A DNA stretch of 64,000 nucleotides. Origin: Anaerohalosphaeraceae bacterium. GTDB lineage: Bacteria > Planctomycetota > Phycisphaerae > Sedimentisphaerales > UBA12454. Positions 15,176-57,339 of this stretch are shown piece after piece (positions within the stretch are counted from its first letter, which is position 1; every line of letters starts with the position of its first letter). The stretch lies in contig JAIORA010000002.1 of the NCBI GenBank assembly GCA_021108375.1, positions 62,001-126,000 on the forward strand, in the 5' to 3' direction. The notes beneath the pieces are model-generated. The model was not told the origin of the DNA. It did not search any database and saw only the letters and a list, made by a program, of their open reading frames with translations. The translations under genes were made by a program, and so were the position numbers.

Positions 15176-15203
15176 TTACGTTTCCTCAATTACTCAAACT
15201 AAA

Positions 15204-15364
15204 GGGAACCTCTAAAAATTCATTTTGGCGAACAAGCGAACCTTTTTGCCGATGGACTGCGTCAGACAAAAGCCGCTTTATCTACGGATAAAGCTGATTT
15301 GTCTTCCTTGCCATCGGACAAAAATTTTCTACTTGTCGCTCAAAAGCAATTATTAGAGCTACCC
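15204..15364. mobile_element. 161-bp MITE-like element, copy 1
   Basis: The element begins GGGAACCTCTAAAAATT and its other end, read inward, is GGGTAGCTCTAATAATT, so the ends are imperfect inverted repeats of about 16 bp. It is flanked by TAAA (15200-15203) and TAAA (15365-15368). The interior folds into a long hairpin: GCCGATGG/CCATCGG, AGACAAA/TTTGTCT, and a central GCTTTATC-TACG-GATAAAGC. It has no transposase and lies between tig and clpP. Confidence 0.88.
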
Positions 15365-15401
15365 TAAAAAATATGCCTTAGATTAACAGTATCGGCTGAT
15401 T

Positions 15402-17131: not shown

Positions 17132-17203
17132 TACTGATACTATATTAAGTACTGATACTATTTTAAGTACTGATACTATTTTAAGTACTGATACTATTTT
17201 AAA
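17132..17203. repeat. Four tandem 18-bp repeats at the 3' end of tRNA-Gly
   Basis: TACTGATACTATTTTAAG is repeated four times head to tail (17132, 17150, 17168, 17186). The first copy has one changed base and the last ends in A. The array touches the discriminator position of the tRNA gene. Confidence 0.95.
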
Positions 17204-17274
17204 GCGGGTGATGAGATTCGAACTCACGACAGCCACGTTGGCAACGTGACGCTCTACCACTGAGCTACACCCGC
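17203..17274 (-). tRNA. tRNA-Gly (anticodon GCC)
   Basis: The minus strand reads GCGGGTG acceptor, GCTCAGTGGTAGAGC D arm, TCACG-TTGCCAA-CGTGG anticodon arm with anticodon GCC, GTGAG-TTCGAAT-CTCAT T arm, CACCCGC, and U73. CCA is not encoded. A promoter (17288-17315) precedes it. Confidence 0.97.
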
Positions 17275-21363: not shown

Positions 21364-23033
21364 AAAAATTATATGTTCCAGCCTGTCTTTTGCTGAGCGG
21401 TTGTTTGCTGACGATTATTCAACTGCCTTTTGGGTTTGGTTTTTTAGGCTGGGTTGCTTTAGTACCTTTTATACTCGTCTGCAACTCAGAAAGAAAAACC
21501 AAACCATTACTAATAACAGCATACATAATCTCTGCGGTCTATTGGCTTGGAAATGTTTACTGGCTCAGCTATGTAACTGCCGCCGGCTGGATTGTGTTCG
21601 CCCTGTATATGGGGCTGTACTGGCCGTTATGTATGCTTGCAATCAAACAGTGCAGAAAAATCGGAATAGTGCTTTGGGTGAGCGTGCCAATAATTATCGC
21701 CGGGGCAGAAGCTTTTCAGGGAATAATTTTCGGAGGCTTTAACTGGCGACTGCTCGGCCAAAGTCAGTATTCAAATATCACGATTATTCAGATAGCGGAT
21801 ATTTTCGGCGTAGCGGGAATCAGCTTTTTGCTGGCAATGGTTAACGGACTCATCGCACAGTTAATAATAGATTTCAAAAAAAATAAACTTTGGCGATTAT
21901 CCAACACGGCAGCTTTTGTTTGCGTTGCGGTACTGACAGCCGGTGCTTATGGGTACGGGCGGTATCGAATAAATCAAACGCCCGACTGCATCGAGCCTGC
22001 GACAATAATAGCAACGGTACAGTCGAATCTTGTCATCACCAACAGTGAAAAAATGGAAGACGCGGCAAAAACTTTTATGGATACGCTTATCGATAGCAGA
22101 AATGCGATGATGGGCAGCAAAGCTGAACTGATAATATGGCCTGAAACTATGGTCGAGGCGGTGCTTGATGAAAGTTTTGTAGCGGTTGCGCCGGAGTATT
22201 TCAGAGCGACAATTTTCAATCGCGCACTAAAAAGACACAGCAACGAAGGAGTGTATCTGCTGGTGGGAGCTTTCGGCGGGAAAGCGGTCGATAAAGGAGA
22301 GACGATTAAGGTCGAAGAAAAAACTAATTCGGTATTTTTTTACGAGCCTGGAAAGGGCAAAAACGAAAAGTATTACAGCAAAATTCATCTCGTGCCTTTC
22401 GGAGAATATCTGCCTTTTAGGGATGTGCCTTTCGTTGAAAAAATTATGAACCTGCTGAGTCCTTACTCGCACGATTATAATCTCAGCAAGGGCAGCGAAT
22501 ATACGGTTTTTGAGATGGTCTCGGCCAATGGCAAAAAATATAAATTCGGCACGGTGATATGTTATGAAGATACCGACCCGGGAGTTTGCAGGCGGATGGC
22601 GGTCGATAAATTCGGTAATAAACGAATCGATTGGTTAGTTAATATCAGTAATGACGGCTGGTTCACGAGGGAAAAGGCCAGCAGCGATGATTATGAAGTT
22701 CTGCCAAGCACTGAATTAGCCCAGCATACCGCGATAAGCATTTTTCGAGCGGTTGAGAACCGGCTAAGCATCGTCAGAAGCGTAAATACCGGCGTTAGCT
22801 GTATGATTAACTCGCTTGGCGAGATAGAAAACGGCTATAAAAACGGAAATTTGCCGAAAAAATGGCAGGCACGGGCTGGGGAAAAAGGCTGGCTTGCGGG
22901 ACAAGTATTTGTCGATAAAAGAGTTACACTGTTCAGCAGGTTCGGCAGAGGCCTTGAAATTTGCTGCGGAGTATTATGCACTTTAATACTGGTTATGACG
23001 ATATATAGGAAGAAAGTTCAAAATAAAGGGTAG
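21345..23033 (+). CDS. lnt: Apolipoprotein N-acyltransferase
   Basis: Lnt adds the third acyl chain to the N-terminal cysteine of lipoproteins in the cytoplasmic membrane. The 562-residue protein has an N-terminal membrane part with several hydrophobic helices (about residues 8-205) and a nitrilase-like domain. The catalytic residues are visible: Glu in IIWPETM (about 267), Lys in YYSKIHLVPFGEYLPF (about 346) and Cys406 in TVICYEDTDP. A final transmembrane helix is near the C-terminus. The start overlaps the methyltransferase gene by 19 nt. The stop codon TAG lies within GGGTAGCTCTAA, which is identical to the end of the MITE-like element described at 15204. lgt, which acts earlier in the same pathway, is at 35573. 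Confidence 0.94.
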   Translation: MDKENLKKLYVPACLLLSGCLLTIIQLPFGFGFLGWVALVPFILVCNSERKTKPLLITAYIISAVYWLGNVYWLSYVTAAGWIVFALYMGLYWPLCMLAIKQCRKIGIVLWVSVPIIIAGAEAFQGIIFGGFNWRLLGQSQYSNITIIQIADIFGVAGISFLLAMVNGLIAQLIIDFKKNKLWRLSNTAAFVCVAVLTAGAYGYGRYRINQTPDCIEPATIIATVQSNLVITNSEKMEDAAKTFMDTLIDSRNAMMGSKAELIIWPETMVEAVLDESFVAVAPEYFRATIFNRALKRHSNEGVYLLVGAFGGKAVDKGETIKVEEKTNSVFFYEPGKGKNEKYYSKIHLVPFGEYLPFRDVPFVEKIMNLLSPYSHDYNLSKGSEYTVFEMVSANGKKYKFGTVICYEDTDPGVCRRMAVDKFGNKRIDWLVNISNDGWFTREKASSDDYEVLPSTELAQHTAISIFRAVENRLSIVRSVNTGVSCMINSLGEIENGYKNGNLPKKWQARAGEKGWLAGQVFVDKRVTLFSRFGRGLEICCGVLCTLILVMTIYRKKVQNKG

Positions 23034-23050
23034 CTCTAAAAAATAAGAGG
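23028..23050. mobile_element. Possible MITE relic (end sequences only)
   Basis: GGGTAGCTCTAA (23028-23039) equals one end of the 161-bp element and AGAGGTT (23046-23052) equals the inner part of the other end, with only six bases between. A TAAA precedes it. It may be an internally deleted copy, and it supplies the lnt stop codon and the AAGAGG ribosome binding site of the next gene. Confidence 0.4.
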
Positions 23051-23056
23051 TTGAAA

Positions 23057-37446: not shown

Positions 37447-37466
37447 ATTTTTACGTCCTGTCTTAA

Positions 37467-37627
37467 GGGTAGCTCTAATAATTGCTTTTGAGCGACAAGT
37501 AGAAAATTTTTGTTATCCGGCAAGGAAGACAAATCAGCTTGAGCCGTAGTTCAAGCGGCTTTTGTCTAACGCAGTCCGGTAGCAAAAAGGTTTGCTTGTT
37601 TGCCAAAATGAATTTTTAGAGGTTCCC
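37467..37627. mobile_element. 161-bp MITE-like element, copy 2 (inverted)
   Basis: The ends are GGGTAGCTCTAATAATT and, inward from the right, GGGAACCTCTAAAAATT. It is flanked by TTAA on both sides (37463-37466, 37628-37631). Its length is again 161 bp. Compared with copies 1 and 3 the hairpin arms are changed: the central stem is GCTTGA/TCAAGC instead of GCTTTA/TAAAGC, and the outer stem is ACCGG/CCGG instead of GATGG/CCATC. Pairing is mostly kept. Confidence 0.9.
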
Positions 37628-37680
37628 TTAAATATAAACAAAAATTAACGAGGTGCATTTTACCTATTACTTGGAACAAT

Positions 37681-41928: not shown

Positions 41929-41956
41929 CAAAACGGAGACAAAGTGAATAATTTAA

Positions 41957-42117
41957 GGGAACCTCTAAAAAATCATTTTGGCGAACAAGCGAACTTTTTC
42001 GCCGATGGACTGCGTCAGACAAAAGCCACTTTATCTACGGATAAAGCTGATTTGTCTTCCTTGCCATCGGACAAAAATTTTCTACTTGTCGCTCAAAAGC
42101 AATTATTAGAGCTACCC
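41957..42117. mobile_element. 161-bp MITE-like element, copy 3, in the leader of the giant gene
   Basis: It has the same ends as copy 1 (GGGAACCTCTAAAAAAT and, inward from the right, GGGTAGCTCTAATAATT), and is flanked by TTAA on both sides (41953-41956, 42118-42121). The central GCTTTATC-TACG-GATAAAGC hairpin is identical to copy 1. Element plus one target copy is 165 bp, a multiple of three, and the frame through it is open, so a GTG at 41944 stays in frame with the downstream gene. Confidence 0.9.
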
Positions 42118-42162
42118 TTAAGAACAACCGAACGAAATATATACCCGAATAAATGGAGTTGT

Positions 42163-45100
42163 ATGATGAAAAAGTATTCCGCGATATTAATTATTGTTCT
42201 GAGCCTTTACAGTTTTGCCGGCGCAGCAACCTTTAACGTCCCTGCCGATTATCCGAATATCCAGGCGGCGGTGAACGCAGCCAGTGACGGCAATGAGGTC
42301 ATTGTCGCAGATGACCCTACGCCGTACACCGGCGTTGGCAACCGCGATATTGATTTCGGCGGTAAACTTATAACCGTAAGGAGCGCAAGCGATAATCCGT
42401 CTGCCTGTATTATTGACTGCCAGGGCTTAGGCAGAGGCTTTTTGTTTCAAACAGGTGAAACCGGGGCGGCAGTCGTGCGCGGATTTACTATTAAAAACGG
42501 CGACGAATACTATGGCGGTGCTATCGAATGCGATGGCGCATCACCGGAAATTAACAACTGTATAATTACAAATAATACGGCAAGCTATGGTGGAGCTATC
42601 GACTGCTTTGAGGCATCGCCGGCAATAATAAACTGTGTTATAATCAATAACACCAGCGACAATGACGGCGGCGCCATCGAATGCGGAAGCGATGCATCGC
42701 CTGAAATTAGAAACTGCCTTATAGCTAATAATACCTCTACTTTATATGGCGGTGCTATCGATTGCTACGACGCATCTTCGCCTGTAATAACGAACTGTAC
42801 AATCGTAAACAACAGCGGCACTTCCAATCGAGGCGGCGTTTATACCTTTGATTCTTCAAGCCCGGTTATAAGAAACAGTATTTTGTGGGGTAATGGCGAT
42901 GATATTGACGGTGCAAGCGCAGAGTACTCGTGTATTCAGGACGGCGATGCCGGAACGGGCAATATCAGTACCGACCCGATGTTTAGAGCAGGGCCCTTAG
43001 GCGATTATTATCTGCGCCAGATTACCGGCGGACAACTCGCAGACAGCGTTGCTGTCGATGGTGGCGGCGATGACGCTACTGTTATCTTCGGCGCAGGACA
43101 TTCCTACACAACGGCGACAAACAATACTCTGGACGACCCTACCGGCGGAACTGTCGATATGGGTTACCATTACCCCGACAGCGGTGCGGCAGCTCAGCAT
43201 AACCTTACAACAGTTGTTGACCCCAATGGGAATTTTGGCACGCTCGACCCGAATAATCCCGCACCCGGCGTTGCGTATGACGAATTCAACGAAGTGCTGC
43301 TTACAGCAAGCCCTGACGCGGGTTTTACTGTCGCAAGCTGGAATGGAACTGACGATGACGGCAGTGTCGCTTTGACTAATGTCGTAACAATCGACGGCGA
43401 TAAAACAGTTACCGTGAAATTTCTCGGCCTGACAATGCACAAACTGCTTACCGGTGTCAACGGAACTAATGGCACGGTTTTGCCTGACAACTCCGGAAAC
43501 AATTTTTACCCTGAATATTCGCAGGTTGATATTACGGCCACTCCTGACGCAGGTTATGTAGTTAATCAGTGGTACGATGGTAACACGGCAACATTCAATA
43601 TAAATGACCCCTGCACCTATACTGTAACAGCCGGGCCGAACGAAATATATACCACGATAATGGATGCCAATACTACCGTGCTGGCTGAGTTTGTTGAAGA
43701 CCCCTGCTCGTACAGGTTCGAGGCAAGAGTTGTGGGGGGCAATGGCACGGTAAGTCCAAAGCGACAGAGCTATCCCCAAAATATAGTTGTTCCCGTTGAC
43801 GCGACACCCGATGCGCATTATCACGTTAAAGAGTGGACAGTAAATGGTACTCCGTTAACCTTAACAGGAACGACCATTTTCGTAACAATGACCTCGGATA
43901 AGAGCGTTACGGTGGAATTTGAGGAAGACCCGACATTTGCAATAATAACGAGCAGCTTTGACATAAGCCACCCCAACCTGAGCGACCCAAATGCTGGCAA
44001 TGACCCGAACGTTTACGACCCGAATTACAGCGTCTACTACAACTTAGAAATCGATGCGAACATAGCTAATGACCCGAACGTCGGATACATCGAACCAAAT
44101 TATCCCGCAGGCGGAACAATTTATCAAAATGAAACAGGAATCTTTACGGCTCATCCAGCTATTGGTTACAAAATTTATTCGTGGTTCGATGCCAACACAA
44201 ATGCCAATGCATTTGACCCTTGCGACCCTAACACATACCATTTGATATACACTGATAGTGTAACACATAACGTAGTGATGGACGCAAACAAAGCAGTCAA
44301 AGCATTTTTCCAGCCTACACCAATATACACTCTGACAACCGATACATTTGGAGGGGTAACGGTTGCTCCTGATTATCAGGCAGGGGAAGACTTTGCAGAA
44401 GGTACGGTCGTTACGCTGACAGCAACGATTCCTGCCGGCGACGATGTAATCGTCTGGAGCGGAACAGATAACGATGGCTCAATACAACTTACAAATACTG
44501 TAACAATGGACTCCAACAAATCCGTAACGGTCGGTGTAAGAACGCCGATAACTCTGCACGTACCCGGGCAGTATCCATCCATAGGCGAAGCGGTTGACGC
44601 AGCTCAGGGCGGCGATACGATTATTGTATCCGAACGAGCGGGCGACCCTTATAACGAAAACGGAATCGACCTTGACGGCAAAGAAATTACAATCGCCGGT
44701 GAACATCCCGATGACCCGTGCTGTGTCGCGGCGACAGTTATTGACTGCCAAGGTCTTGACGCGGCATTCATACTGAAAAAAGGACAGGGCCGAGATACGG
44801 TTATTGACGGCCTGACAATTATCAACGGCGGCGGTGCACAAGACCCTGACAACCCAACAACAAACAGATACGGCGGAGCAATAGCGTGCTTTGAAGGTTC
44901 GGCCCCGATAATTTCTAACTGTGTTTTCAGAAACTGTGTTGCTCAGGGCCAAAACGGCTCAAACGGCGACCATGAGTACGATGACATCGGGGACTACGAC
45001 GACCTCCCTGACCAAATTGACGCTAATGAACCCGACGCTAATTTTCCGGACGGTCAAGCCGGAATATCCGGAATAGATGGAGCAGACGGCCAAAATGGAG

Positions 45101-48100
45101 CAGATGGCGAGGATGGCGGCGATGGCGGAGACGCATACGGCGGAGCTTTATATTTCAGCCTTTCAGGCAATCCGAAGATACTGAACTGTAAAATGATTAA
45201 CTGCTCGGCAGCAGGTGGTAATGGCGGCTGGGGCGGAGACGGCCAAAACGGACAAAACGGACAGACCGGACAGGCCGGCCAGACCGGACAAGAGGGTATG
45301 GAGGGCGACCCTAATATGCCTGGCGGTACAGGCGGTACAGGCGGTGATGGCGGTACTGGCGGTGATGGCGGCGATGGCGGCGAAGGCGGTAAAGGCGGCG
45401 ACGGCGGCGAAGCAATCGGCGGAGCGATTTATTTCGCAGGCAATAGTAATATAGATATGGAATACTGTGAGTTTATAGAGTGCAGCACAACGCCGGGTAT
45501 AGGCAACTATGCTGGTAACGCTGGTAACGCTGGCAATGCTGGAGATAGCGGTGAAGGCGGTACAGGCGGTGAGGGTGGTGATAACAGCGAACCCAATGGA
45601 ATCGACGGAATCGATGGGGCTGACGGAATTAGCGGATTGGCTGGTGACGGCGGAGACGGCGGACGCGGCGGCGATGGCGGAGTGAACGGCCAACTCTCAC
45701 ACGCAGGTGCTGTATTCTTCGGAGACACCTGCAATACGACTATGCTCGAAACGCTGTTTGAAGGCAATTTCACGGTAACTGACATGTTGCCGTTCAGATG
45801 CGACGCAGGTAACGGCGGTAACGGCGGTGATGGCGGCAGCGACCCTAACGATATAGGCGGCAACGGCGGCGAAGGTGGCGATGGCGGTACTCCGGGCAAC
45901 TCCGGCGACAACAAAGAAATAGGCGAAGGCGGTAACGGCGGCGATGGCGGCACAGGCGGCGGGGACTTCGGCGCAGGTGGTGATGGCGGCGACGCGACAA
46001 ACGGTGATACCGGCGGAACAATAGGCGGCGAAGGCGGCGAAGGCAATCCTGATGGTGTTGATGGTACCGACTATAGCGAGTCAGACGGAATATCGCCGTG
46101 GATTACAATGACAGCCATAGCCGGCGGTAACTACTACTCGCACGACTGCACTGTTACGATGACGAATTGTACTTTCAAAGGCAACCATACCGAAGACACG
46201 TGGACAAACACAAACTCCAGCGGTGGAGCAGAGTACTACGAAGAAAACTGCACACTAACAATAGACGGCTGCAAATTCGTAGACAATTACGTCGGCTCGT
46301 GGGGCCACGGTGGCGGGCAATGTCTCGCGGTGTGGGGCTACGGGCTAAGCATTACTGACAGCCAATATCTGGACAACCAGTGCGTCGGCTCCGGCGGCGG
46401 TGTTTACGTTGGCTGGGGAGTAAATATAGATATCAACAGAACAACATTCAGCGACAATATCGCCGGCTTCAGCAAAAACGGCTACCAAAACTATAGTTAC
46501 GGTGGCGGTATCTGCTGGAATAATAGTGGCTTTTCCGGAACAGTAAATATAAATGACAGCGAATTCACAAACAACTACGCCGCGTTCGGCGGAGGAATGT
46601 ACTGGTACAGCGATACAAATATGACAACAAATGTCAGGAGATGTTTCTTTGCTGACAATTCTGCAAATCACGGCGGCGGTATATACTTTAGCTTAGGCGA
46701 CCCTAACATCAGCGATTGTACTTTCAAGCGCAACCACGCGGAAGGTCTGTGGGTGTGGATGGACAACTGGTACTTTGAAGACTTCTACGGCGGTGGCGGC
46801 GCGATTATGGCGTTCAGTACTGACGCGGTTATAAAGGATTGTTCAATAAGCGAAAATACTACCAGCGGCTCCGGCGGCGGTGTGTATCTCGGAGGCGGCG
46901 CAAACTATCCATCGCTGAATAACTGTCTGATAACAGATAACGTCGCAACGCTTGATGGCGGCGGTGTAATAACATATTGGTACGTCGAATCTACTATAAG
47001 AAATTGTACAATCGTCGGTAACAGTGCCTATGATGTAATGGACGAAAATTACGGTAAAGGCGGCGGACTGAGTTGTTCGTATGAAAGCCAGACAACACTC
47101 ATCGACAGCATTGTGTGGGGCAATCTCGCAGTAGCCGGTGACCAGATTGCAGTAGGCAGCGACAGCGACCCGTACTATATTCAGCGGCCAGCAACGCTGA
47201 CCGTTTCGTACAGCGATATTGAAGGCTGGACGAACCCTGATTCCATATATGTTGAGCCTGGACGAACTCTTACTGATGCCGGCGGCGTAATCAGCGTTGA
47301 CCCGAATTTCATAGAGCCTTACTATCTGGCATTTGACAGCAATGCAGTTGATGCCGGTAGCCAGAGCGCGACAGCAGCAGGACTTGATACATATACAACA
47401 CATATAGACAACACGCCGGATGCCAACACGGTCGATATGGGTTACCATTACGGGCTGGGACAGTTCAGTCTCGTTATCATAGGTAACGGCAGTGTAACGG
47501 TTGACCCGAACAACTTCGACCCAGGTACCGGCTTATACAGCGGCAGTATGTTTACGCTGACGGCTGTGCCGGATTACGGATATAGAGTTAAGAGCTGGGA
47601 CGGAGCCGAAGAGGCCCCTGCCTGGAACACGAACATCAATACCGTTGTAGTTAACGGCATTAAGATTGTTACGGTAGAATTTGAAGTTGCCCACAATAAC
47701 ACCATTGATGTTTTCGGCGATGTTATGGGTATCCAAAAAGCTATCGATGACGCAGTCGATGGCGACACTATTAAGATTCATCCGGGTACATACGTCGGAA
47801 CAGGATTCTATGTCGATAAAAACATAACAATCGTCGGCGACCCTGAGAATCCGGAAACTGTTGTTATCGACTGCAATGACGAAAGTCCTGACAGCCGTGG
47901 CTTTGTACTCGTTGGCGATAATACTCATTCGGTAGAACTTAACGGCCTGACAATAATTAATTCGATTGTCTGGGTAGGCAATGTACACCAACCGGATGAC
48001 CCGGGCGAGGATGGTTGGCCTAACGAAGAGAACCGCGATAACGGAGCCGCTGACCTGTTTGGCGGAGCTATCAGGATATTGGGTAATCATACAGTAGCAA

Positions 48101-51100
48101 ACTGTATTATAAGAAATTGCTCCGTAACAGCCGGACACGCTTCAGACGGCGTAGCCGGAGGCGACCCTGAAGATGGCGAGTTACACGATGGCGGCGACGG
48201 CGGATTCGGCGGCAACGCTGGCGGAGCGGGTATATGCGTGTTCTGGGGAGAGCCGAATATAATCAACTGCACAGTCGAAGATTGCGTAGCTATCGGCGGA
48301 AATGCCGGTGATGGAGCCATCGGATGGACATTCCCAGACCCTCCCACACACCCGAGCGGTATAAGCGGGAACGGCGGCGGAGGCGGCAATGTTTATGGTG
48401 CCGGTGTTTATGTACGCAACGGCAGTCCGACTTTTGAAAATCTAACCGTCAACAATTGCCTGGCAATAGCTGGTAACGCAGGCGACGGCAGCGACGGCGC
48501 ACCGAACGCAAAAGGCGGCGATGGTGGTTTGCCGGGACAGATTAGAGGCGGTGGCGTTTATTGCGCAGTCAACTCTATGCCGGAATTTATAGACTGCGAC
48601 ATCGAAAATTGTACCGCTCTCGGCGGCTTTGCCGGCGATGGTGGTGATGGCGGCGAAATGGAAAGCGCAGAAATAGAAGGCGGATACGGCGGTCTTACAA
48701 CCGAGGCTGGCGCAGAACAAGGCGAAATATGGCGACATAGCGGTAATGGAAGCGGCGTATATTGTGACGAATGGTCAAGAGCGACATTCACAAATTGCAG
48801 CTTTGTTGACAATATCGGTTACGGCGGTATAAGCGGTCTTGGCGGACGTAACACCGTAAGTAACTGGCAGTGGCAGCCGAGGAAGAATTTCATAATGCCT
48901 GTTCACGGCGGCGGTGTTTACTGCTCTGAAAATTCTTCTGTAACATTTGACCAATGCCATATTGAAAATAACAGAACAGCATTCCTTTACGATTATGCCT
49001 CGCCTGACTTCAGTGATTTTCAGGGACTTGTATGCCCGGCAATCCTGCCTGACTATAACGATGCTGTAAGTAGCTATGACGGCGAGTTGATTGGCAGAGG
49101 CGGCGGTGCGTATCTATTAGAAACAGCATCGACAACAATCACAGATTGTAATTTCGTTGGCAACAGCTCACCTGTCGGCGGTGGTATTTACGCGTTTGAT
49201 TCCGGAATAAATATAGCAGACAGCAACATTATGGAAAATATCGCTTACTCTGGTGGTGGCGCACTTATCGAAGACAGTGTGGCCGACATCAATAATACGA
49301 TTTTCCAAAATAATGCGGCGGGAACCCAGGGCGGCGACGCTGAGTATCTCGGCAATGTCGATTTCGGTACCGGCGGTGGTTTGTACTCGATTTCAACGGA
49401 GTTAAATTTTGTAAATTCAACCATAACAGAAAACTATGCTAAACTTTACGGCGGCGGCGTGGTCATTGACGGCGATTTGCCGATGGCCGGTTGGCCAATA
49501 GTAAAGAACTGCCTTATAACCAGCAACAAAGCTGTCGAGGCAGGCGGCGGTATAGCGAGTATCTACTTCGCTGAGCCAATAATCGCAAATTGTACAATCG
49601 CTGAAAACAGGGTAAGCGATGCCAACGGTCTTGGCGGCGGTCTGTTCGGCTCTTACGGTAGTGATACATTCGTCGTTGACAGTATTATCTGGGGCAACAG
49701 CGGTGTTGACGGCGGACAAATTGCGCTGAGCAAAGGCGGGCCAGGAACAAACTACCCTGCCAACGCAGTCGTTATATACAACGATATAGACCTAAGAACG
49801 GTTGTGCCTTTTGAATTTGAATCTACTTCTGGTTCATCAGGCGGCAGCGGCACAGGTTTGCTTGTCAATGGACAGACAATTCAAAACCATATCGATGCTA
49901 ATGGAGTCGCTAACGTTATAGTAACATTAGTTGATTCGGAGATGGCGGGGTCAACGAACTGGAATTCATCAGCTTCTGTTGCCGCTCTCCAGGGTGATGT
50001 AGCACTTATTCAGCAGCAGGTACTGTCAACTCTTGACGCAGGTGAATTTGCCCTGCGTCAGCAACTGCAAAATACGCCTATCGTCAGCGGCAGTATAAGC
50101 CAATCCGGTCTGGACAAATTAGTTGCCAACCCGGCAGTAGCTCATATCGAACCGGTAAAACAGGTTCATCCCGCACTGGCACAGGGCATTCCGCTAATGC
50201 AGGCCCTGAGTGCGAGACAACAATTCAATGGTTCGGGTACTTCTGTTGCAATCGTTGATACGGGCATAGATTATACACATCCAATGCTCGGCGGCGGCGG
50301 CTTCCCGAACGCAAAAGTTATTGGCGGTTACGATACCGGCGAAAACGACACAGACCCAATGCCACTAAGCCAAGCACACGGCACGAATTGTGCTGGTATC
50401 GCAGCTGGTGATTTAGGAACTGTTGGAGATTACATCGGCGGTGTAGCTCACAGTGCAAGATTGTACGCACTTAAAGCAAATCCCGATGGTATGGGATACT
50501 TCTTCACTGACGCTATAATCGCAGCCTGGGACTGGTGTATAAGCCACAAAAATGATGACTCGGCAAACCCGATTCTGGTCATAAGCAATAGTCTCGGTGG
50601 AGGTAAATACTACAGTGCTGAAGAAGCAGACGATGACAATCCTGCAACTTTTGCTGCTGCAAGTCGCGCAAATGATGCAGGCATAACGGTAGTGGCAGCG
50701 TCCGGCAACGATGGGTACACCGATGGAATAAGTGCCCCGGCGGCAATGAGCAATATCATAAGCGTCGGTGCGGTTTACGATGGTGTATTTTTGTCCGGTG
50801 CGTGCGGGATAATGACAAGGCCTGATGATGTTACCTGCTATTCAAATACGGCAGACTTCCTTGACATTCTCGCGCCTTCAGAAAACGCCTATACCACCGA
50901 TATTGTCGGTGCGGGTGGATACGGCAGTGGAGATTACTATGCCTACTTTAACGGTACAAGCTCGGCGTGTCCCTATGCGGCTGGAGCTATTGCAGCTCTG
51001 CAAAATGCGGCGATTGAAAGCAAAGGGGCAGCACTTAGCCCTGAAGAAATCAGGACTACGCTCACAACTACCGGCGACCCTGTTACCGATACGAAGGTCA

Positions 51101-54100
51101 ACATTACCAAGCCGAGAGTTAATCTCGGAGCGGCAATCGCGATGCTGAGTGAAGCTGTTCCGATTTATCTCGAAGAAGGCTGTACAATATACGGAGTTGA
51201 GCCAAACACCGCAGACCCTAACGAAGCGTGGATGGTTTCGGCTGACAGCAATAATATCGATGATGACCCGAACTTTGTTTACGGATATTACCTGAGCCAT
51301 ATTGCTGCCAACCAGGAAATAGACAGCAACGCAATTGATGCAGGAAGCGACCTTGCTACTGCACTGGCAATGCATATTTACACGACACGTACAGACGGTG
51401 TAAACGATGTCAATACCGTTGATATGGGTTATCACTACTTAGCGGCTTATCCGAGCTACATTCTAACTCTTGAGGTAAACCAGCCGGGACTTCCAAATGA
51501 TGTGAATTATTATGGACATATCGAATTTGACTGGAACGACGTCAACACGACAGCGGCTACGCCATATAGTATCTATAAGGGTACTCCGGTCAAAATTGAA
51601 GCTGTGCCGGATGCCAACTACAGGGTTGCCAAGTGGTTTATTGAACTGCCCGACCCGAATTATGACGACCCGAATCAGACTTTCACAACGACCATAGAAA
51701 CTCGTGAGCGATATCGAGAAATCGTTATGACCAGCGATATAGCAATTACTGTTGAATTTGAATTTTATGAGCCAAGACATCTGTTCGTGCCTGATGAATA
51801 TGCAACTATCCAGGAAGCGGTAGATGCAGCGGAGCCGGGCGATACGATATATGTCTATCGCAAGGACAACGGAGACCCCCATTATATAACGGGTGCGGAC
51901 GGAATCGACCTTCAAGGCAAGGGTATAACAGTTCGTTCTGAAGACCCGAACGATGCGAATATTGTAGCGCAGACTGTTATCGACTGTCAGAACAACAGCA
52001 GAGCGTTTATCTTCCGGAACGAAGAGGATGCTAATACTATCATTGACGGCCTGACAATAATCAACGGTTCAGCTTCAGGTGGAATCGGTTATCCGGGCGG
52101 AACCGGTCCGTGGGACCCGTGCGACCCGAACACACGCTACGATGGCGGCGACGCTGCCGGTGATGGTTACGGCGGAGCGATGTACTTCGATGCCAACACC
52201 AGTCCGATTGTACGCAGATGTACAATTACGAACTGTCAGGCAACCGGCGGTATTGGCGGAGACGGTATTAAGGGATTCTCAGTTGATGCAGACGATGGAG
52301 CTGATAGGGCCGGCAGAGGCGGACACGGCGGTAACGGCAGCGGTAGCGGTTATGGCGGTGCGTTCTACTGCGACGCGAACAGCCATCCAACAATTGATTT
52401 CTGTTTCATCGAAAATTGCAAAGCTCTCGGTGGCATAGGCGGCGATGGCGGCGATGGCGGTAACGGTCTGGATGACAAGATTGGCGGCGATGGCGGTAAT
52501 GGCGGTAACGGCAACGGCAACGGTGCCGGCGGCGTAGTGTACTGCGAAGAAGACGCAGCTCCGAAATTTATCGATTGCAACTTCCCGGAAAACAATGCCT
52601 CGCAGGGCGTTGGCGGTACCGGCGGCAGCACCGGAGCAGGTACTATACCTGATGACCCTGATATTCGCCTTCCACATAACGGCTATAACGGCAGCAGCAA
52701 CGGCTCCGGTGTCGGAGGCGCAGGTTACTATACAGAAGCTACCATCGCAGACTTCAATAGCTGCCAGTTCATCAGCAACAGCAGTACCTCTGATGGCAGT
52801 ACAATACATAATGATGGTGGCGGAGCTCTTTACTTTGAGCCTAACTGTGTATCTGTTGAGCTTATCAGTTGCGACCTCTATGGCAATATGGCAACCGGCG
52901 GTGATGGCGGAGCCATCAAGTGTAAAGCCAAGAACACAATCAAACTTACCGGCTGCTACTTCGGCGGTAATAACTCAGATGGAGACGGCGGCGCGATTTG
53001 TGTCGGAGACACGGAAGACGCGAATACCGTTTTTCTTGAATTTACAGACTGTGCTATCACCGACAATACGGCTACGGCCTTCGGCGGTGGTATATACGCA
53101 ACGAGCTTTGACGCAGATATGATAGATTGCTACGTCAATAGAAACACCGCTACAAGCGGCGGTGGAATGTATCTGACGACACAAGTAGATGCCTCGACAG
53201 AATCTGAGCTCGAATTCGTTCGCGGCACCATTATGCAGAACAACGCTACCGGAGATTATGCCAACGGCGGAGGCGCATATATTGTTAATCTGCCGGCAAC
53301 GATAGTAAATGTGTGGGTAAAGGGCAACAGCTCTTTCTATGCCGGTGGTGGAATTATGTTCAGAGGCACTAAGACAAGCGAAACGGAAATATATAATTGT
53401 CTCTTTACAGAAAACACGGCCACTACCAGAGGCGGCGGTCTTTTGGTATCTATCAATTCCTCGCCTGAAATTACAAGCTGTACTTTCGTCAAAAACGGTG
53501 TGGCAGTGAGCGGTATGGGCGGTGCTATACTCTGTATCAACAACAGTTCGCCAATTATCGCCAATTGTATCTTCGCTGAATCCGGCCAGGTGGCTGTACG
53601 GGAAGGTAGTGCCGATAGCGTTGTCGATATGTCTTACTGTATGTTCGCCAAGAACATAAACGGCGATTATTATGAATTCGACTCCGGCAGAACATATAAA
53701 ACCTACGGTTCGACCGACCCAAATGAACTTGCCGCTTTAAATGCAGCGACCGGCGGTAATCATAGGATTGGTCTCAACACAACCTCTGATTTCACAAAGG
53801 GTACGTTGGGTGATTATTATCTGGTTCAGGCTATGAGTCTGGCAGTCAATAACGGAAGCGGCGACGCAAATGACGCTAACCTGCCGATTACCGGCGAGAC
53901 TATGGCTGACTACACGACAAACCCCAACGATGTTTTCGTCGCCGACAGCGGGCTGCTCGATATGGGTTATCACTATCCGAACCCGAACACTTTGGTAGAA
54001 TATACACTGACAACAATCGTCGATGGTGGTAACGGCGATATCATTCCAGCCACAGACCAGCACTACGCAGGCACAACGGTAGAACTTACCGCGGTACCGA

Positions 54101-57100
54101 GGACGGGCTGGCGAGTTAATAAGTGGAGCGGAACAGATGACGATACCAAGACAGAGGTAACAAACTATATAACCATAATCGGCGACAGGACTGTAAGTGT
54201 TTCTTATGAACTGCCAGATGTCCTTTATGTGCCGAGTGAATACACCGCGATTCAGTATGCAATTAACGATGCAAAGAGCGGTGATAAAATTGTTATGGCT
54301 CCGGGCATTTATCCCGAGCCGGACGTAAATTATGACTATGGTGCCATTATAATTAACGGCAAGAATATCGTTATAACGAGCAGCAATCCTGACGACCCGT
54401 GCATCGTTGCCGCTACGGTCTTTACAGAAAGCCGTTGGTATATAAATAATGTTGACAGGACTATGGTAATTGACGGAATAACTATCCGTGATGCTCATTA
54501 CCACGGCGGAAACTGCGACTGCCCACCGCGATGTGCCAAAGGTCCTACCGGAGACGGCAACAACGGCGGAAGCTTGATGGGCGGTGCAATTATACTAATC
54601 AACGCATCTCCAACAATCCGCAATACCAGAATTGTTGACTGCTCAGCTGGCGGCGGCAATGCTGCTCCTGCCTGCGATGAATGGGGAGACGGCGGCTGGG
54701 GCGGCTATGCAAGAGGCGGTGCGGTCGGCATCTCTCTCGGAAGCGACCCGCTCTTTGCTAACTGTGAATTTATCGACTGCTATGTACGAGGCGGTGACGG
54801 CGGTAACGCCCGCGAAAATAAGGGACACGGCGGAAGCTGGGGCGACCCGAATGATGATGTATGGCATACCTGGGACTGGGCACCGGCCGGCGGCTACGAA
54901 GAATACTGGTATTACAGCGGTTACGGCGGCGCGGTTTACTGTATGCCAGGCACAAAGCCATTATTTGAGAACTGTCTGTTCCAGGGCAATAGAGCCTATG
55001 GCGGTGTCTGCGGCAACAGTCACACAGCAGCGTGGCCGTGGCCTCAGTTTAACTATGTCATAGATGCCTTCGGCGGTGCGATTTTTGCCGGTGCAGGCAG
55101 TGAGCCTAATTTTGTTAATTGCAGCTTTATAGATAATGAGGCTGATACCAGAGGCCAGATAGATGGCGGCCTTGACCCGAACGAACCTAACAGCACAGAG
55201 TTCACTTTGCCAGATGCTGTTATAAGCTATGGCGGTGCGGTTGCGGCCGAAATTGGCGCGAAGCCGAAATTCACAAATTGTGATTTCAGCGAGAACATCG
55301 CCTGTTCCGGCGGTTCAATGTACCTTGAAGGTGCCGACGCGATGATTGATAATTGTACGTTTGAAGAGGGATGGTCAATGCTTGGCGGCGGGCTGTGTAT
55401 GATAGACAGTAATTCGATAATCTCGCAAAGCCGAATCAGCTCAAACACCGCTATCAACCCGACAGGCCAGGGCGGCGGTATATACAGCGTATCGTCAGGC
55501 ATACAGTTTATCGACAGCCAGCTCAATAGTAATATCGCAACCATTTCCGGCGGCGGTGCATACTTTGGCGGCGAAAGAGAGCCCAATATGTTCAACTGCC
55601 TCGTCGTTGACAATAGCGCAAACAGAGATGGCGGCGGTGTTTCAGCCAACTGGCACAGTCAACTGCTGATATCCAACTGTACCATCGCTGATAACACGGT
55701 TAGCGGCATCAACTTCGACGCGGGTTACGGCGGCGGCTTGAGCGCTGCTTATTACGCATACGTCGATGTCATAAACAGTATTATCTGGAGCAACACAGCC
55801 AGTTACGGCCTAAGCATATCGATAGGCAGTGTGTACGACCCGAATGCCAAGCCTATGGCAGAAGTTAAAGTCAGATATAGCGATATTCGCGGCGGTGAGG
55901 CCAACGTATTCGTTGATACCCCGCACGAGGCAGTACTCGACTGGAATGATATAGGTGAACCAAATACAAACCTGCTTGGTACCGCACTGGATGACCCGAA
56001 TTTCGTTGTCGGCCCACTGGGCGGTCTGCTGGAAAGTTACTACCTTAGCCAGTTGGATACAGGCGACCCGAGCCAGACTGTCGATAGCCCTGCTGTCAAT
56101 AGAGGCAGTGCAGATGCGGTAGATGTTGATATGTACAGACACACAACCAGGACAGACCATATGTTAGATGCTGGCACTGTCGATATGGGATACCATTATG
56201 TATTGGATACGTTCAGTAATGGTATTAGATGCGACTACAACTATGACGGTATTGTTGATATGCAGGATTTGACACTGTTCCTGCTTTACTGGCTCCAGGA
56301 TGATTGCCAATTCCCGGGCTGGTGCCACGACAGAGACCTGACAACCGATGGCGAAGTAGATATGGAAGACTATTCCGTCTTTGCCAGTCATTACGGAGGT
56401 ACGGAAGATGTTCCGCCTGAGCCGAACTCGATGACGTGGGCGGTAACTCCGCACTCCGCTGGAGATGCCGGGATTACAATGACGGCAACAACGGCAGTCG
56501 ATGATTTCAGTCCGCCAGTCGAGTACTACTTCCGTTGCGATTACAATCCTAATGGCGATGGCAGTGATAGAGATTGGGGCGAGGACAGCAGCTACAGCGA
56601 TGAAGGCCTTACTGAAGACGTTGCGTACGGCTACAAGGTAAGGGCCCGCGATTCAAGAGGCAACGAAACGGACTGGTCTGTCATCGGCTATGCTGTACCT
56701 GGCGAAGATGTAACTCCGCCAGAGCCGAATGTGATGACCTGGGCGTTAGTGCCTTATGCGACATCGCCTAACTCAGTGAGTATGACCGCTACGACAGCCA
56801 GCGATGGCAGCGGAGTTGAATATCGCTTCTACGAAACCAGCGGTGAGCCTAACGGGACAACAAGTGATTGGCAGGATAGCTCGATATTCGACGATTTCGG
56901 ACTCGACCCGTGTACAACCTATTCTTACTACGTTGTCGCACGAGATAAATCCAGTAATCACAACCAGACGGCACCCTCGACAACAGAATCGGTTACAACA
57001 TCAAGCGAGGCAAATGACCCTAATGTTACCGATGTATATCCGCCGGAACCTAACCCGAGCCAGTGGGCTACATATCCTTATGCATACGAGGAGTTCGGCA

Positions 57101-57339
57101 CGGGTACCTGGTATCACACAATGACAGCTGTTGTCGCCGAGGACACCAACACCGGAGGAAATAACCCGTGCGAGTACTACTTTGAATGCGTCGGCTTCTC
57201 CGACAGCGGCTGGACAACCAGTCCAACGTGGACATATCACGTCGGAGGCGCTGCAAACCATAGAACCTATCGTGTGCGAACCAGAGACTCTATAGGCAAC
57301 ACGGGTGGTTGGTCAATATATCGTCACACCTCTGATTAA
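42163..57339 (+). CDS. Giant secreted multi-beta-helix protein with embedded pro-subtilase
   Basis: About 5058 residues from the ATG at 42163 (GGAG 5-8 nt upstream; signal peptide KKYSAILIIVLSLYSFAGA). Five super-modules start near residues 24, 797, 1847, 3207 and 4020. Each opens with a cap such as VPADYPNIQAAVNAASDG, continues as right-handed parallel beta-helix coils (repeated GGAI-x-NC strands), and closes with VDMGYHY or LDMGYHY near 335, 1759, 3088, 3934 and 4674. InlB-type repeats link modules (five after the first, one after each of the next three). Module 3 contains an I9-like propeptide (about 2570-2675) and a subtilase with Asp2699, His2739, Asn2849 and Ser2933 (GTSSACP). Gly-Gly-X loops occur in modules 2, 3 and 4, with a shorter Gly-rich stretch in module 5. 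After residue 4690 come a dockerin-like pair (DYNYDGIVDMQDL) and three PPEPN-MTWA domains. Inference: extracellular adhesin or matrix protein. Confidence 0.9.
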   Translation: MMKKYSAILIIVLSLYSFAGAATFNVPADYPNIQAAVNAASDGNEVIVADDPTPYTGVGNRDIDFGGKLITVRSASDNPSACIIDCQGLGRGFLFQTGETGAAVVRGFTIKNGDEYYGGAIECDGASPEINNCIITNNTASYGGAIDCFEASPAIINCVIINNTSDNDGGAIECGSDASPEIRNCLIANNTSTLYGGAIDCYDASSPVITNCTIVNNSGTSNRGGVYTFDSSSPVIRNSILWGNGDDIDGASAEYSCIQDGDAGTGNISTDPMFRAGPLGDYYLRQITGGQLADSVAVDGGGDDATVIFGAGHSYTTATNNTLDDPTGGTVDMGYHYPDSGAAAQHNLTTVVDPNGNFGTLDPNNPAPGVAYDEFNEVLLTASPDAGFTVASWNGTDDDGSVALTNVVTIDGDKTVTVKFLGLTMHKLLTGVNGTNGTVLPDNSGNNFYPEYSQVDITATPDAGYVVNQWYDGNTATFNINDPCTYTVTAGPNEIYTTIMDANTTVLAEFVEDPCSYRFEARVVGGNGTVSPKRQSYPQNIVVPVDATPDAHYHVKEWTVNGTPLTLTGTTIFVTMTSDKSVTVEFEEDPTFAIITSSFDISHPNLSDPNAGNDPNVYDPNYSVYYNLEIDANIANDPNVGYIEPNYPAGGTIYQNETGIFTAHPAIGYKIYSWFDANTNANAFDPCDPNTYHLIYTDSVTHNVVMDANKAVKAFFQPTPIYTLTTDTFGGVTVAPDYQAGEDFAEGTVVTLTATIPAGDDVIVWSGTDNDGSIQLTNTVTMDSNKSVTVGVRTPITLHVPGQYPSIGEAVDAAQGGDTIIVSERAGDPYNENGIDLDGKEITIAGEHPDDPCCVAATVIDCQGLDAAFILKKGQGRDTVIDGLTIINGGGAQDPDNPTTNRYGGAIACFEGSAPIISNCVFRNCVAQGQNGSNGDHEYDDIGDYDDLPDQIDANEPDANFPDGQAGISGIDGADGQNGADGEDGGDGGDAYGGALYFSLSGNPKILNCKMINCSAAGGNGGWGGDGQNGQNGQTGQAGQTGQEGMEGDPNMPGGTGGTGGDGGTGGDGGDGGEGGKGGDGGEAIGGAIYFAGNSNIDMEYCEFIECSTTPGIGNYAGNAGNAGNAGDSGEGGTGGEGGDNSEPNGIDGIDGADGISGLAGDGGDGGRGGDGGVNGQLSHAGAVFFGDTCNTTMLETLFEGNFTVTDMLPFRCDAGNGGNGGDGGSDPNDIGGNGGEGGDGGTPGNSGDNKEIGEGGNGGDGGTGGGDFGAGGDGGDATNGDTGGTIGGEGGEGNPDGVDGTDYSESDGISPWITMTAIAGGNYYSHDCTVTMTNCTFKGNHTEDTWTNTNSSGGAEYYEENCTLTIDGCKFVDNYVGSWGHGGGQCLAVWGYGLSITDSQYLDNQCVGSGGGVYVGWGVNIDINRTTFSDNIAGFSKNGYQNYSYGGGICWNNSGFSGTVNINDSEFTNNYAAFGGGMYWYSDTNMTTNVRRCFFADNSANHGGGIYFSLGDPNISDCTFKRNHAEGLWVWMDNWYFEDFYGGGGAIMAFSTDAVIKDCSISENTTSGSGGGVYLGGGANYPSLNNCLITDNVATLDGGGVITYWYVESTIRNCTIVGNSAYDVMDENYGKGGGLSCSYESQTTLIDSIVWGNLAVAGDQIAVGSDSDPYYIQRPATLTVSYSDIEGWTNPDSIYVEPGRTLTDAGGVISVDPNFIEPYYLAFDSNAVDAGSQSATAAGLDTYTTHIDNTPDANTVDMGYHYGLGQFSLVIIGNGSVTVDPNNFDPGTGLYSGSMFTLTAVPDYGYRVKSWDGAEEAPAWNTNINTVVVNGIKIVTVEFEVAHNNTIDVFGDVMGIQKAIDDAVDGDTIKIHPGTYVGTGFYVDKNITIVGDPENPETVVIDCNDESPDSRGFVLVGDNTHSVELNGLTIINSIVWVGNVHQPDDPGEDGWPNEENRDNGAADLFGGAIRILGNHTVANCIIRNCSVTAGHASDGVAGGDPEDGELHDGGDGGFGGNAGGAGICVFWGEPNIINCTVEDCVAIGGNAGDGAIGWTFPDPPTHPSGISGNGGGGGNVYGAGVYVRNGSPTFENLTVNNCLAIAGNAGDGSDGAPNAKGGDGGLPGQIRGGGVYCAVNSMPEFIDCDIENCTALGGFAGDGGDGGEMESAEIEGGYGGLTTEAGAEQGEIWRHSGNGSGVYCDEWSRATFTNCSFVDNIGYGGISGLGGRNTVSNWQWQPRKNFIMPVHGGGVYCSENSSVTFDQCHIENNRTAFLYDYASPDFSDFQGLVCPAILPDYNDAVSSYDGELIGRGGGAYLLETASTTITDCNFVGNSSPVGGGIYAFDSGINIADSNIMENIAYSGGGALIEDSVADINNTIFQNNAAGTQGGDAEYLGNVDFGTGGGLYSISTELNFVNSTITENYAKLYGGGVVIDGDLPMAGWPIVKNCLITSNKAVEAGGGIASIYFAEPIIANCTIAENRVSDANGLGGGLFGSYGSDTFVVDSIIWGNSGVDGGQIALSKGGPGTNYPANAVVIYNDIDLRTVVPFEFESTSGSSGGSGTGLLVNGQTIQNHIDANGVANVIVTLVDSEMAGSTNWNSSASVAALQGDVALIQQQVLSTLDAGEFALRQQLQNTPIVSGSISQSGLDKLVANPAVAHIEPVKQVHPALAQGIPLMQALSARQQFNGSGTSVAIVDTGIDYTHPMLGGGGFPNAKVIGGYDTGENDTDPMPLSQAHGTNCAGIAAGDLGTVGDYIGGVAHSARLYALKANPDGMGYFFTDAIIAAWDWCISHKNDDSANPILVISNSLGGGKYYSAEEADDDNPATFAAASRANDAGITVVAASGNDGYTDGISAPAAMSNIISVGAVYDGVFLSGACGIMTRPDDVTCYSNTADFLDILAPSENAYTTDIVGAGGYGSGDYYAYFNGTSSACPYAAGAIAALQNAAIESKGAALSPEEIRTTLTTTGDPVTDTKVNITKPRVNLGAAIAMLSEAVPIYLEEGCTIYGVEPNTADPNEAWMVSADSNNIDDDPNFVYGYYLSHIAANQEIDSNAIDAGSDLATALAMHIYTTRTDGVNDVNTVDMGYHYLAAYPSYILTLEVNQPGLPNDVNYYGHIEFDWNDVNTTAATPYSIYKGTPVKIEAVPDANYRVAKWFIELPDPNYDDPNQTFTTTIETRERYREIVMTSDIAITVEFEFYEPRHLFVPDEYATIQEAVDAAEPGDTIYVYRKDNGDPHYITGADGIDLQGKGITVRSEDPNDANIVAQTVIDCQNNSRAFIFRNEEDANTIIDGLTIINGSASGGIGYPGGTGPWDPCDPNTRYDGGDAAGDGYGGAMYFDANTSPIVRRCTITNCQATGGIGGDGIKGFSVDADDGADRAGRGGHGGNGSGSGYGGAFYCDANSHPTIDFCFIENCKALGGIGGDGGDGGNGLDDKIGGDGGNGGNGNGNGAGGVVYCEEDAAPKFIDCNFPENNASQGVGGTGGSTGAGTIPDDPDIRLPHNGYNGSSNGSGVGGAGYYTEATIADFNSCQFISNSSTSDGSTIHNDGGGALYFEPNCVSVELISCDLYGNMATGGDGGAIKCKAKNTIKLTGCYFGGNNSDGDGGAICVGDTEDANTVFLEFTDCAITDNTATAFGGGIYATSFDADMIDCYVNRNTATSGGGMYLTTQVDASTESELEFVRGTIMQNNATGDYANGGGAYIVNLPATIVNVWVKGNSSFYAGGGIMFRGTKTSETEIYNCLFTENTATTRGGGLLVSINSSPEITSCTFVKNGVAVSGMGGAILCINNSSPIIANCIFAESGQVAVREGSADSVVDMSYCMFAKNINGDYYEFDSGRTYKTYGSTDPNELAALNAATGGNHRIGLNTTSDFTKGTLGDYYLVQAMSLAVNNGSGDANDANLPITGETMADYTTNPNDVFVADSGLLDMGYHYPNPNTLVEYTLTTIVDGGNGDIIPATDQHYAGTTVELTAVPRTGWRVNKWSGTDDDTKTEVTNYITIIGDRTVSVSYELPDVLYVPSEYTAIQYAINDAKSGDKIVMAPGIYPEPDVNYDYGAIIINGKNIVITSSNPDDPCIVAATVFTESRWYINNVDRTMVIDGITIRDAHYHGGNCDCPPRCAKGPTGDGNNGGSLMGGAIILINASPTIRNTRIVDCSAGGGNAAPACDEWGDGGWGGYARGGAVGISLGSDPLFANCEFIDCYVRGGDGGNARENKGHGGSWGDPNDDVWHTWDWAPAGGYEEYWYYSGYGGAVYCMPGTKPLFENCLFQGNRAYGGVCGNSHTAAWPWPQFNYVIDAFGGAIFAGAGSEPNFVNCSFIDNEADTRGQIDGGLDPNEPNSTEFTLPDAVISYGGAVAAEIGAKPKFTNCDFSENIACSGGSMYLEGADAMIDNCTFEEGWSMLGGGLCMIDSNSIISQSRISSNTAINPTGQGGGIYSVSSGIQFIDSQLNSNIATISGGGAYFGGEREPNMFNCLVVDNSANRDGGGVSANWHSQLLISNCTIADNTVSGINFDAGYGGGLSAAYYAYVDVINSIIWSNTASYGLSISIGSVYDPNAKPMAEVKVRYSDIRGGEANVFVDTPHEAVLDWNDIGEPNTNLLGTALDDPNFVVGPLGGLLESYYLSQLDTGDPSQTVDSPAVNRGSADAVDVDMYRHTTRTDHMLDAGTVDMGYHYVLDTFSNGIRCDYNYDGIVDMQDLTLFLLYWLQDDCQFPGWCHDRDLTTDGEVDMEDYSVFASHYGGTEDVPPEPNSMTWAVTPHSAGDAGITMTATTAVDDFSPPVEYYFRCDYNPNGDGSDRDWGEDSSYSDEGLTEDVAYGYKVRARDSRGNETDWSVIGYAVPGEDVTPPEPNVMTWALVPYATSPNSVSMTATTASDGSGVEYRFYETSGEPNGTTSDWQDSSIFDDFGLDPCTTYSYYVVARDKSSNHNQTAPSTTESVTTSSEANDPNVTDVYPPEPNPSQWATYPYAYEEFGTGTWYHTMTAVVAEDTNTGGNNPCEYYFECVGFSDSGWTTSPTWTYHVGGAANHRTYRVRTRDSIGNTGGWSIYRHTSD

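Follow-up and report, generated by a model that had tools for sequence, protein, structure and literature searches.

The window analysed here, a 64,000-nucleotide stretch of an Anaerohalosphaeraceae genome (contig JAIORA010000002.1, positions 62,001 to 126,000), holds three copies of a 161-bp palindromic repeat, which raise the question of whether the element is an ordinary mobile remnant or whether its folded form is itself kept, for mobility or as an RNA. The usual view of MITEs is that they are transient leftovers of a single IS within a single species. The source genome is a 2.36-Mb draft from the order Sedimentisphaerales (Planctomycetota). The strand that begins GGGTAGCTCTAAT is here denoted R, and its complement, GGGAACCTCTAAAAA, L. 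The features of the locus are as follows.

15204..15364, minus strand: element copy 1, 161 bp; the fold-favoured R strand, which starts GGGTAGCTC, is on the minus strand
15200..15203, no strand: TAAA, left target duplication of copy 1
15365..15368, no strand: TAAA, right target duplication of copy 1
15275..15294, minus strand: apical stem-loop of copy 1, 8-bp stem and 4-nt loop, site of the T-A to G-C change in copy 2
15305..15310, minus strand: conserved internal loop, 5' side, CAAGGA on the R strand, placed by alignment A1 (described below) and its structure
15257..15263, minus strand: conserved internal loop, 3' side, GACGCAG on the R strand, placed in the same way
37467..37627, plus strand: element copy 2, 161 bp, R on plus, TTAA duplications at 37463-37466 and 37628-37631
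41957..42117, minus strand: element copy 3, 161 bp, R on minus, TTAA duplications at 41953-41956 and 42118-42121
23028..23052, plus strand: possible relic of the element, with one end, GGGTAGCTCTAA, and behind it what may be left of the other end, AGAGGTT; a chance resemblance is possible

A sequence-only reading had described three 161-bp copies flanked by TAAA, TTAA and TTAA. All three were confirmed, each exactly 161 bp long and each (3/3) bounded by perfect 4-bp duplications; copies 1 and 3 share one orientation and copy 2 has the opposite one. The inverted terminal repeats that it quoted are also present, but 13 bp is too short, since the ends reach about 26 bp with mismatches. Copy 3 lies in the leader of a giant secreted-protein gene, the likely true start of which, MKKYSAILIIVLSLYSFAGA, is just downstream of the copy; the corresponding open frame (41944-57339, plus strand, 5131 codons) apparently encodes a giant secreted repeat protein. 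The surroundings of copy 1 revealed no sigma-70-like promoter. The apical stem-loop at 15275-15294, followed by a T-rich stretch, gives a terminator-like score on both strands.

Every feature of a MITE that we examined was found, supporting the assignment of the element to this class. It is 161 bp long, below 500 bp, has inverted ends in the aligned copies and occurs in multiple dispersed copies with no transposase inside, the longest frame being 53 codons and not constrained. Autonomous partners were found as IS5-type elements in the complete genome of a relative, G033, with further candidates in G020, G272 and G328. The G033 element is a 1297-bp IS that has GGCCACCTCTAAAAATC and GGGTTCCTCTAAAAATC at its ends and is accompanied by the duplications TTAA and TAGA. 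The transposase that it encodes carries the domains DUF772 and DDE_Tnp_1 and reaches 279 bits against NF033581 (IS5 family), for which the cut-off is 140. The sequence that this IS has in common with the MITE is limited to the first ~15 bp. G020 has an IS that resembles the one in G033 but lacks matching duplications. In G328 an IS1182/IS5-like gene lies directly behind CTAGCAGCCCGTTGAAAAAGTC, the end type carried by the MITEs of that order; the candidates of G272 and G328 have the same ends and are nearest to IS1182/IS5, below curated cut-offs. Within the source genome, searches with PF01609 and PF05598 revealed no autonomous partner: its single DDE_Tnp_1 gene is on a contig other than that of the window and has no such ends, and DUF772 gave no match. 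A full-length IS with matching ends was thus found in a relative and not in the own assembly, which is 93% complete, so that a partner may be missing from it. The copy number, terminal repeats, duplications and matching IS5-type elements bear out the proposal of a non-autonomous transposon, and for the two transposase families searched the window is indeed empty.

The sequence-only reading had suggested looking for the element in its own and in related genomes, and many further copies were found in both. In the source genome 48 stretches match, about 30 of them at full length, and numerous solo ends represent truncated remnants. Matches occur in 30 of 98 genomes searched among the relatives (the own one counted), in 23 of 58 genera. 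Perfect 4-bp flanks surround 19 of 29 own-genome copies (L001-L030, with L028 excluded as a 250-bp variant). Copies lacking duplications had been named as evidence against the transposon, and this was borne out in part, as the other ten of 29 are imperfect, mostly by one or two bases; we read these as decay. The right end is present in 61 named stretches. Their source MAGs bear the labels Phycisphaerae, Phycisphaerales, Sedimentisphaerales, Planctomycetota or uncultured bacterium, except for one from Lysobacterales; this last stretch (L188) has no hairpin and was dropped as a chance match of a 20-letter pattern. Searches of plasmids with two outgroup copies returned short weak matches only, and one scan of viral contigs gave three candidate stretches.

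The length of ~161 bp is kept even in distant genomes, with 87 end pairs at 161 bp, 15 at 160 and 8 at 162, a tally of end pairs below 300 bp in loci chosen for resemblance to the query and hence not an unbiased sample. Size variants include 51-83 bp derivatives, 170-184 bp forms and 250-bp forms with a three-hairpin insert; in four own-genome loci of 249-250 bp (L051, L052, L053 and L060) an extra block of ~92 nt in one arm folds into three hairpins. Two copies carry a large insert near the apical loop and have perfect duplications (L144:679-1020, 342 bp, TGTA; L151:6616-6959, 344 bp, TTAA). Short derivatives of 36-111 bp exist, some of them with duplications, which suggests that the interior may be dispensable for insertion unless later deletion made them. 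The very short forms with perfect duplications (L101:1578-1613, 36 bp; L100:1026-1078, 53 bp; L057:201-274, 74 bp) are either mobile ends or in-place deletions.

The entire element is a single imperfect palindrome that folds as one hairpin. The R strand of copy 1 has a predicted fold of -69.6 kcal/mol (z -8.9 against shuffles), and the other strand one of -60 kcal/mol (z -8.3). Copies 1 and 2 differ at 16 positions, 12 of which fall in six pairs altered on both sides. The compensatory ones read, from copy 1 to copy 2, CG>TA, AT>CG, TA>CG and TA>GC, so that the T-A to G-C and A-T/T-A to C-G changes claimed earlier are correct by pair comparison; of the other double changes, TA>GT yields a G-U pair and AT replaces a CC mismatch. 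A further two pairs changed on one side, both GC>GU on the R strand. At the gathering level of Rfam the element matches no family, and we rejected a known RNA family; at the relaxed level two sub-threshold matches overlap it (L083 and L258, E 0.91 and 8.7), which we take as chance. The only Rfam matches of the window are two tRNA genes, at 2623-2706 and, on the minus strand, 17203-17274.

To examine the pairing across copies we used an alignment (A1) of 90 distinct copies of 91 listed, L138 being excluded as a poor match. These were drawn from 118 end pairs, the remainder being variants of greater or smaller length or ends paired by chance. A structure of 60 pairs leaves 94.9% of cells paired, and 31 of these pairs show double changes. 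Covariation scored 0.228, compared with 0.118 in shuffles and 0.034-0.077 when partners were slid, and none of 500 shuffles reached the observed value; the structure was derived from A1 itself, which somewhat favours it. Mapped onto a tree, changes in paired columns coincide on a branch 52 times, compared with a mean of 12 and a maximum of 25 in 1000 random-placement runs, and slid partners give 10-15 coincidences; these event counts are rough, as they come from parsimony on a poorly resolved tree. The covariation thus lends strong support to the earlier claim that pairing has been maintained. The R strand is the more stable one in 113 of 118 end pairs, a count that includes chance pairs; the outgroup counts of 82/84 and 17/17 are not independent proof, since the covariance model set the orientation and may favour the better-folding strand.

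Whether the hairpin is kept as DNA or as RNA can be approached through single changes away from Watson-Crick pairs. If DNA complementarity alone were at work, G-U and A-C would be expected in equal numbers, since what is G-U on one strand reads as A-C on the other. On the R strand of A1 we counted 119 changes to G-U and 50 to A-C (p 1e-7), and pairs defined by the L-strand fold gave 114:52. Among individual pairs, 32 lean to G-U and 8 to A-C, and the excess is found on terminal (84:41) as well as internal branches (35:9). The same mutation classes in unpaired columns gave 50:92, the opposite trend (Fisher p 5e-10), so that mutational bias does not explain the G-U excess. In three groups from another class the ratios were 35:11 (G142, p 0.0005), 30:12 (a mixed group, p 0.008) and 60:46 (G296, p 0.21), replicating the bias in two of the three. 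These counts suggest selection on RNA or on one single-stranded DNA strand, as DNA-level palindrome repair would not produce a bias. The strand bias is the new result beyond the first observation, which was right and understated. As to the suggestion that the fold may matter for mobility or act as an RNA, the bias speaks for an RNA, or for a single folded strand, and does not indicate the role.

The main competitor, which we consider unlikely, is an ordinary palindromic MITE without an RNA role, the arms of which are kept complementary by replication template switching in the hairpin (quasipalindrome correction). Arm-to-arm copying of this kind needs no selection to produce double changes in any long palindrome, and the own-genome copies taken alone (n=27) show no significant strand bias, with 16:12 distinct G-U and A-C changes (p 0.57). 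Such copying is symmetric between strands, however, which is at odds with the ratio in the full alignment and with the opposite lean of unpaired sites. It would also erase mismatches, yet nearly all copies keep the internal loop CAAGGA/GACGCAG and a GC/UG mismatch at alignment columns 19-20/149-150. Selection on a folded single DNA strand, for instance in movement or replication that uses a single-stranded hairpin, would escape the argument from symmetry, and G-T is tolerated better than A-C in DNA hairpins too. The G-U:A-C ratio is close to 2:1 in every gene context (R sense 12:6, R antisense 12:5), and this independence of gene orientation is what would be expected if transcription were irrelevant. 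Inverted ends with 4-bp duplications point instead to a DDE transposase acting on double-stranded DNA; moreover, the 27 copies of G033, 16 in one orientation and 11 in the other, show no orientation switch between chromosome halves such as fork-tied single-strand movement might give (read by eye, with halves drawn without a located origin). We hold this explanation to be less probable still than arm-to-arm copying. Integron attC-like or IS200/IS605-like single-strand movement was likewise found unsupported, the element having inverted ends and duplications.

A protein-coding palindrome like the Rickettsia RPEs was the least plausible alternative and was rejected. It can draw on L-strand frame 3, open in 58 of 90 copies and in 54 of 71 of the 161-bp copies, and on the sum 161+4, a multiple of three, by which insertion could preserve a reading frame. 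Variability is nevertheless flat over the codon positions (0.546, 0.513 and 0.547 bits), indicating a frame without protein selection; many own-genome copies have a stop in the apical stem, 160- or 162-bp copies shift the frame, and 8 of 77 copies lie inside a called ORF, mostly a short one. The position of copies relative to neighbouring genes, taken from a simple ORF caller, shows similar numbers in all four arrangements (+M+ 20, -M+ 17, +M- 15 and -M- 13, of 77). A cis-only RNA role dependent on gene orientation is unsupported, as copies occur in all arrangements and the bias is the same in all contexts. The constant ratio means that the bias does not follow host transcription; the fold seems to be selected in the lineage of the element, not visibly via transcription of its present neighbours.

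We also looked for relatives beyond the order. A first covariance model (R1) matched 4 of 294 genomes of the phylum, two from the order of the window and two, G264 and G296, from outside the class. R1 scores of 45-61 bits in the outgroup are alone no proof of homology, because true elements score 36-71 bits on the wrong strand. A second model (R2), built from ten G296 copies, finds Sedimentisphaerales copies reciprocally, with up to 61 bits and E 2e-12. Full-length R-strand matches (E below 0.001) were obtained in 22 of 27 sources given, the exceptions being L045, L047, L093 (which gave a weak partial match only) and both R1-found loci of G264, L245 and L259; among the three window copies only copy 3 was matched, at 50.2 bits. 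R2 matched 10 of 14 genomes in the order of G296, among which G296 itself gave 134 matches and G142 gave 111; it also matched 22 genomes of the 294-genome phylum sample, in 15 families, most matches being 154-163 bp long. In this stricter search of the phylum none of the eight listed genomes of the window's own order was matched. Outside the order the terminal repeats differ (GCAGGCCGTTGAAAA, in part with CTAG flanks, and TGGTCTGACACG in G264), and the internal-loop letters CAAGGA and GACGCAG, or close variants, recur in other classes; in the G142 group the loop is closed to a continuous stem. Two related elements lie side by side, 2-3 bp apart, at L270:1501-1808 and G139:C40:32-352, in genomes of other classes. 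Common descent of the elements of Sedimentisphaerales and of the other families is likely, not proven, on these sequence comparisons, and caution is called for because similarity of IS ends between palindromes inflates the scores that they give with one another. A bolder reading, which we put forward tentatively and rather doubt, is a phylum-wide class of mobile structured RNA: a ~161-nt hairpin, almost constant in length and with its internal loop conserved, carried through Planctomycetota by IS5/IS1182-type ends that change per lineage while the RNA core is selected. On this view what moves would be an RNA gene, and the DNA transposases would be borrowed by it.

From the observed ends, duplications, copy number, covariation, strand bias and wide distribution, the explanation that we prefer as a whole, with a probability of roughly 0.6, is a MITE moved in trans, the R-strand RNA hairpin of which is selected and works after transcription. 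The 161-bp non-coding element would be moved by IS5/IS1182-type DDE transposases that recognise the terminal ~15-26 bp, and would insert between genes at 4-bp YTAR/TTAA-like targets. The R strand (GGGTAGCTC first) would be transcribed into one RNA hairpin of ~60 bp with the conserved internal loop. This fold would be under selection, the interior, unlike that of most MITEs, being no dead remnant. After transcription a host factor specific for dsRNA, for example RNase III, may bind the hairpin or cleave it; for a hairpin of this length, processing by RNase III would be the simplest step to assume. Such a step could make insertions in transcribed spacers tolerable and alter the stability of flanking messages, as reported for NEMIS/ERIC. 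We infer the mobilizing transposase, the transcription and the host-factor step, and place most weight on selection for the R-strand RNA hairpin and much less on the precise mechanism.

The spread, uniformity and strand-specific pairing of the interior are unusual for a MITE. A similar length and fold in at least 15 families, together with compensatory change that is specific to one strand, would imply that a transposon relic is exposed to selection through its RNA. The count of G-U versus A-C offers a measurable way to tell selection on RNA from palindrome repair in DNA, and it can be applied to ERIC, NEMIS and other repeats. The element is also a candidate RNA, missing from Rfam, in a phylum whose RNA biology is little known. 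The end sequence of the element had no match in the literature searched, and the terminal letters of the outgroup repeats gave matches all on staphylococci by title. Titles and abstract beginnings of the literature on Sedimentisphaerales transposons, Planctomycetes MITEs or intergenic palindromes and IS1182 MITEs held no description of it.

Among known systems, NEMIS or Correia elements of Neisseria are described as intergenic, ~107-155 bp long and bounded by terminal repeats, with a long-stem transcript that RNase III cleaves at the repeats (PMC2229807, PMC10969869). The present element resembles them in size range, intergenic site, terminal repeats and a long transcript stem, here from a predicted fold; it differs in its ends and in belonging to another phylum, Planctomycetota, and is likened by description, not by sequence. 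The duplication of NEMIS/Correia is TA, and we know of no phylum-wide constant length for them. The hairpin transcript of NEMIS/ERIC-type repeats has its counterpart here in the covariation and strand bias, with transcription itself assumed. ERIC/IRU and YPAL of enterobacteria are described as imperfect palindromes of fixed length, intergenic, which affect the transcripts that carry them, and the element is likewise an imperfect palindrome, of fixed length and intergenic. YPAL measures ~168 bp, ERIC/YPAL show TA or internal repeats in place of the 4-bp YTAR-like duplications of the element, and their hosts are enterobacteria. The length of ERIC/IRU is 127 bp. Rickettsia RPEs are described as palindromes of ~105-150 bp with an open frame, whereas the present element shows no coding constraint and seldom lies within a gene. 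QMITE1/2 of Coxiella are hairpin MITEs too, reported as origins of small RNAs (PMC10969869), but their duplications are 7-9 bp and they belong to one species. REP/RAYT palindromes, of 20-40 bp with a GTAG or CGTC tag, a tyrosine transposase and no duplications (PMC3733652), were rejected as a model for an element of 161 bp with 4-bp duplications. The IS5-group/IS1182 elements of MITE-carrying genomes resemble the element in the type of their terminal letters and in their 4-bp targets (TTAA, TAGA, CTAG), but they carry a transposase and have no common sequence with it that we noticed past the first ~15-20 bp.
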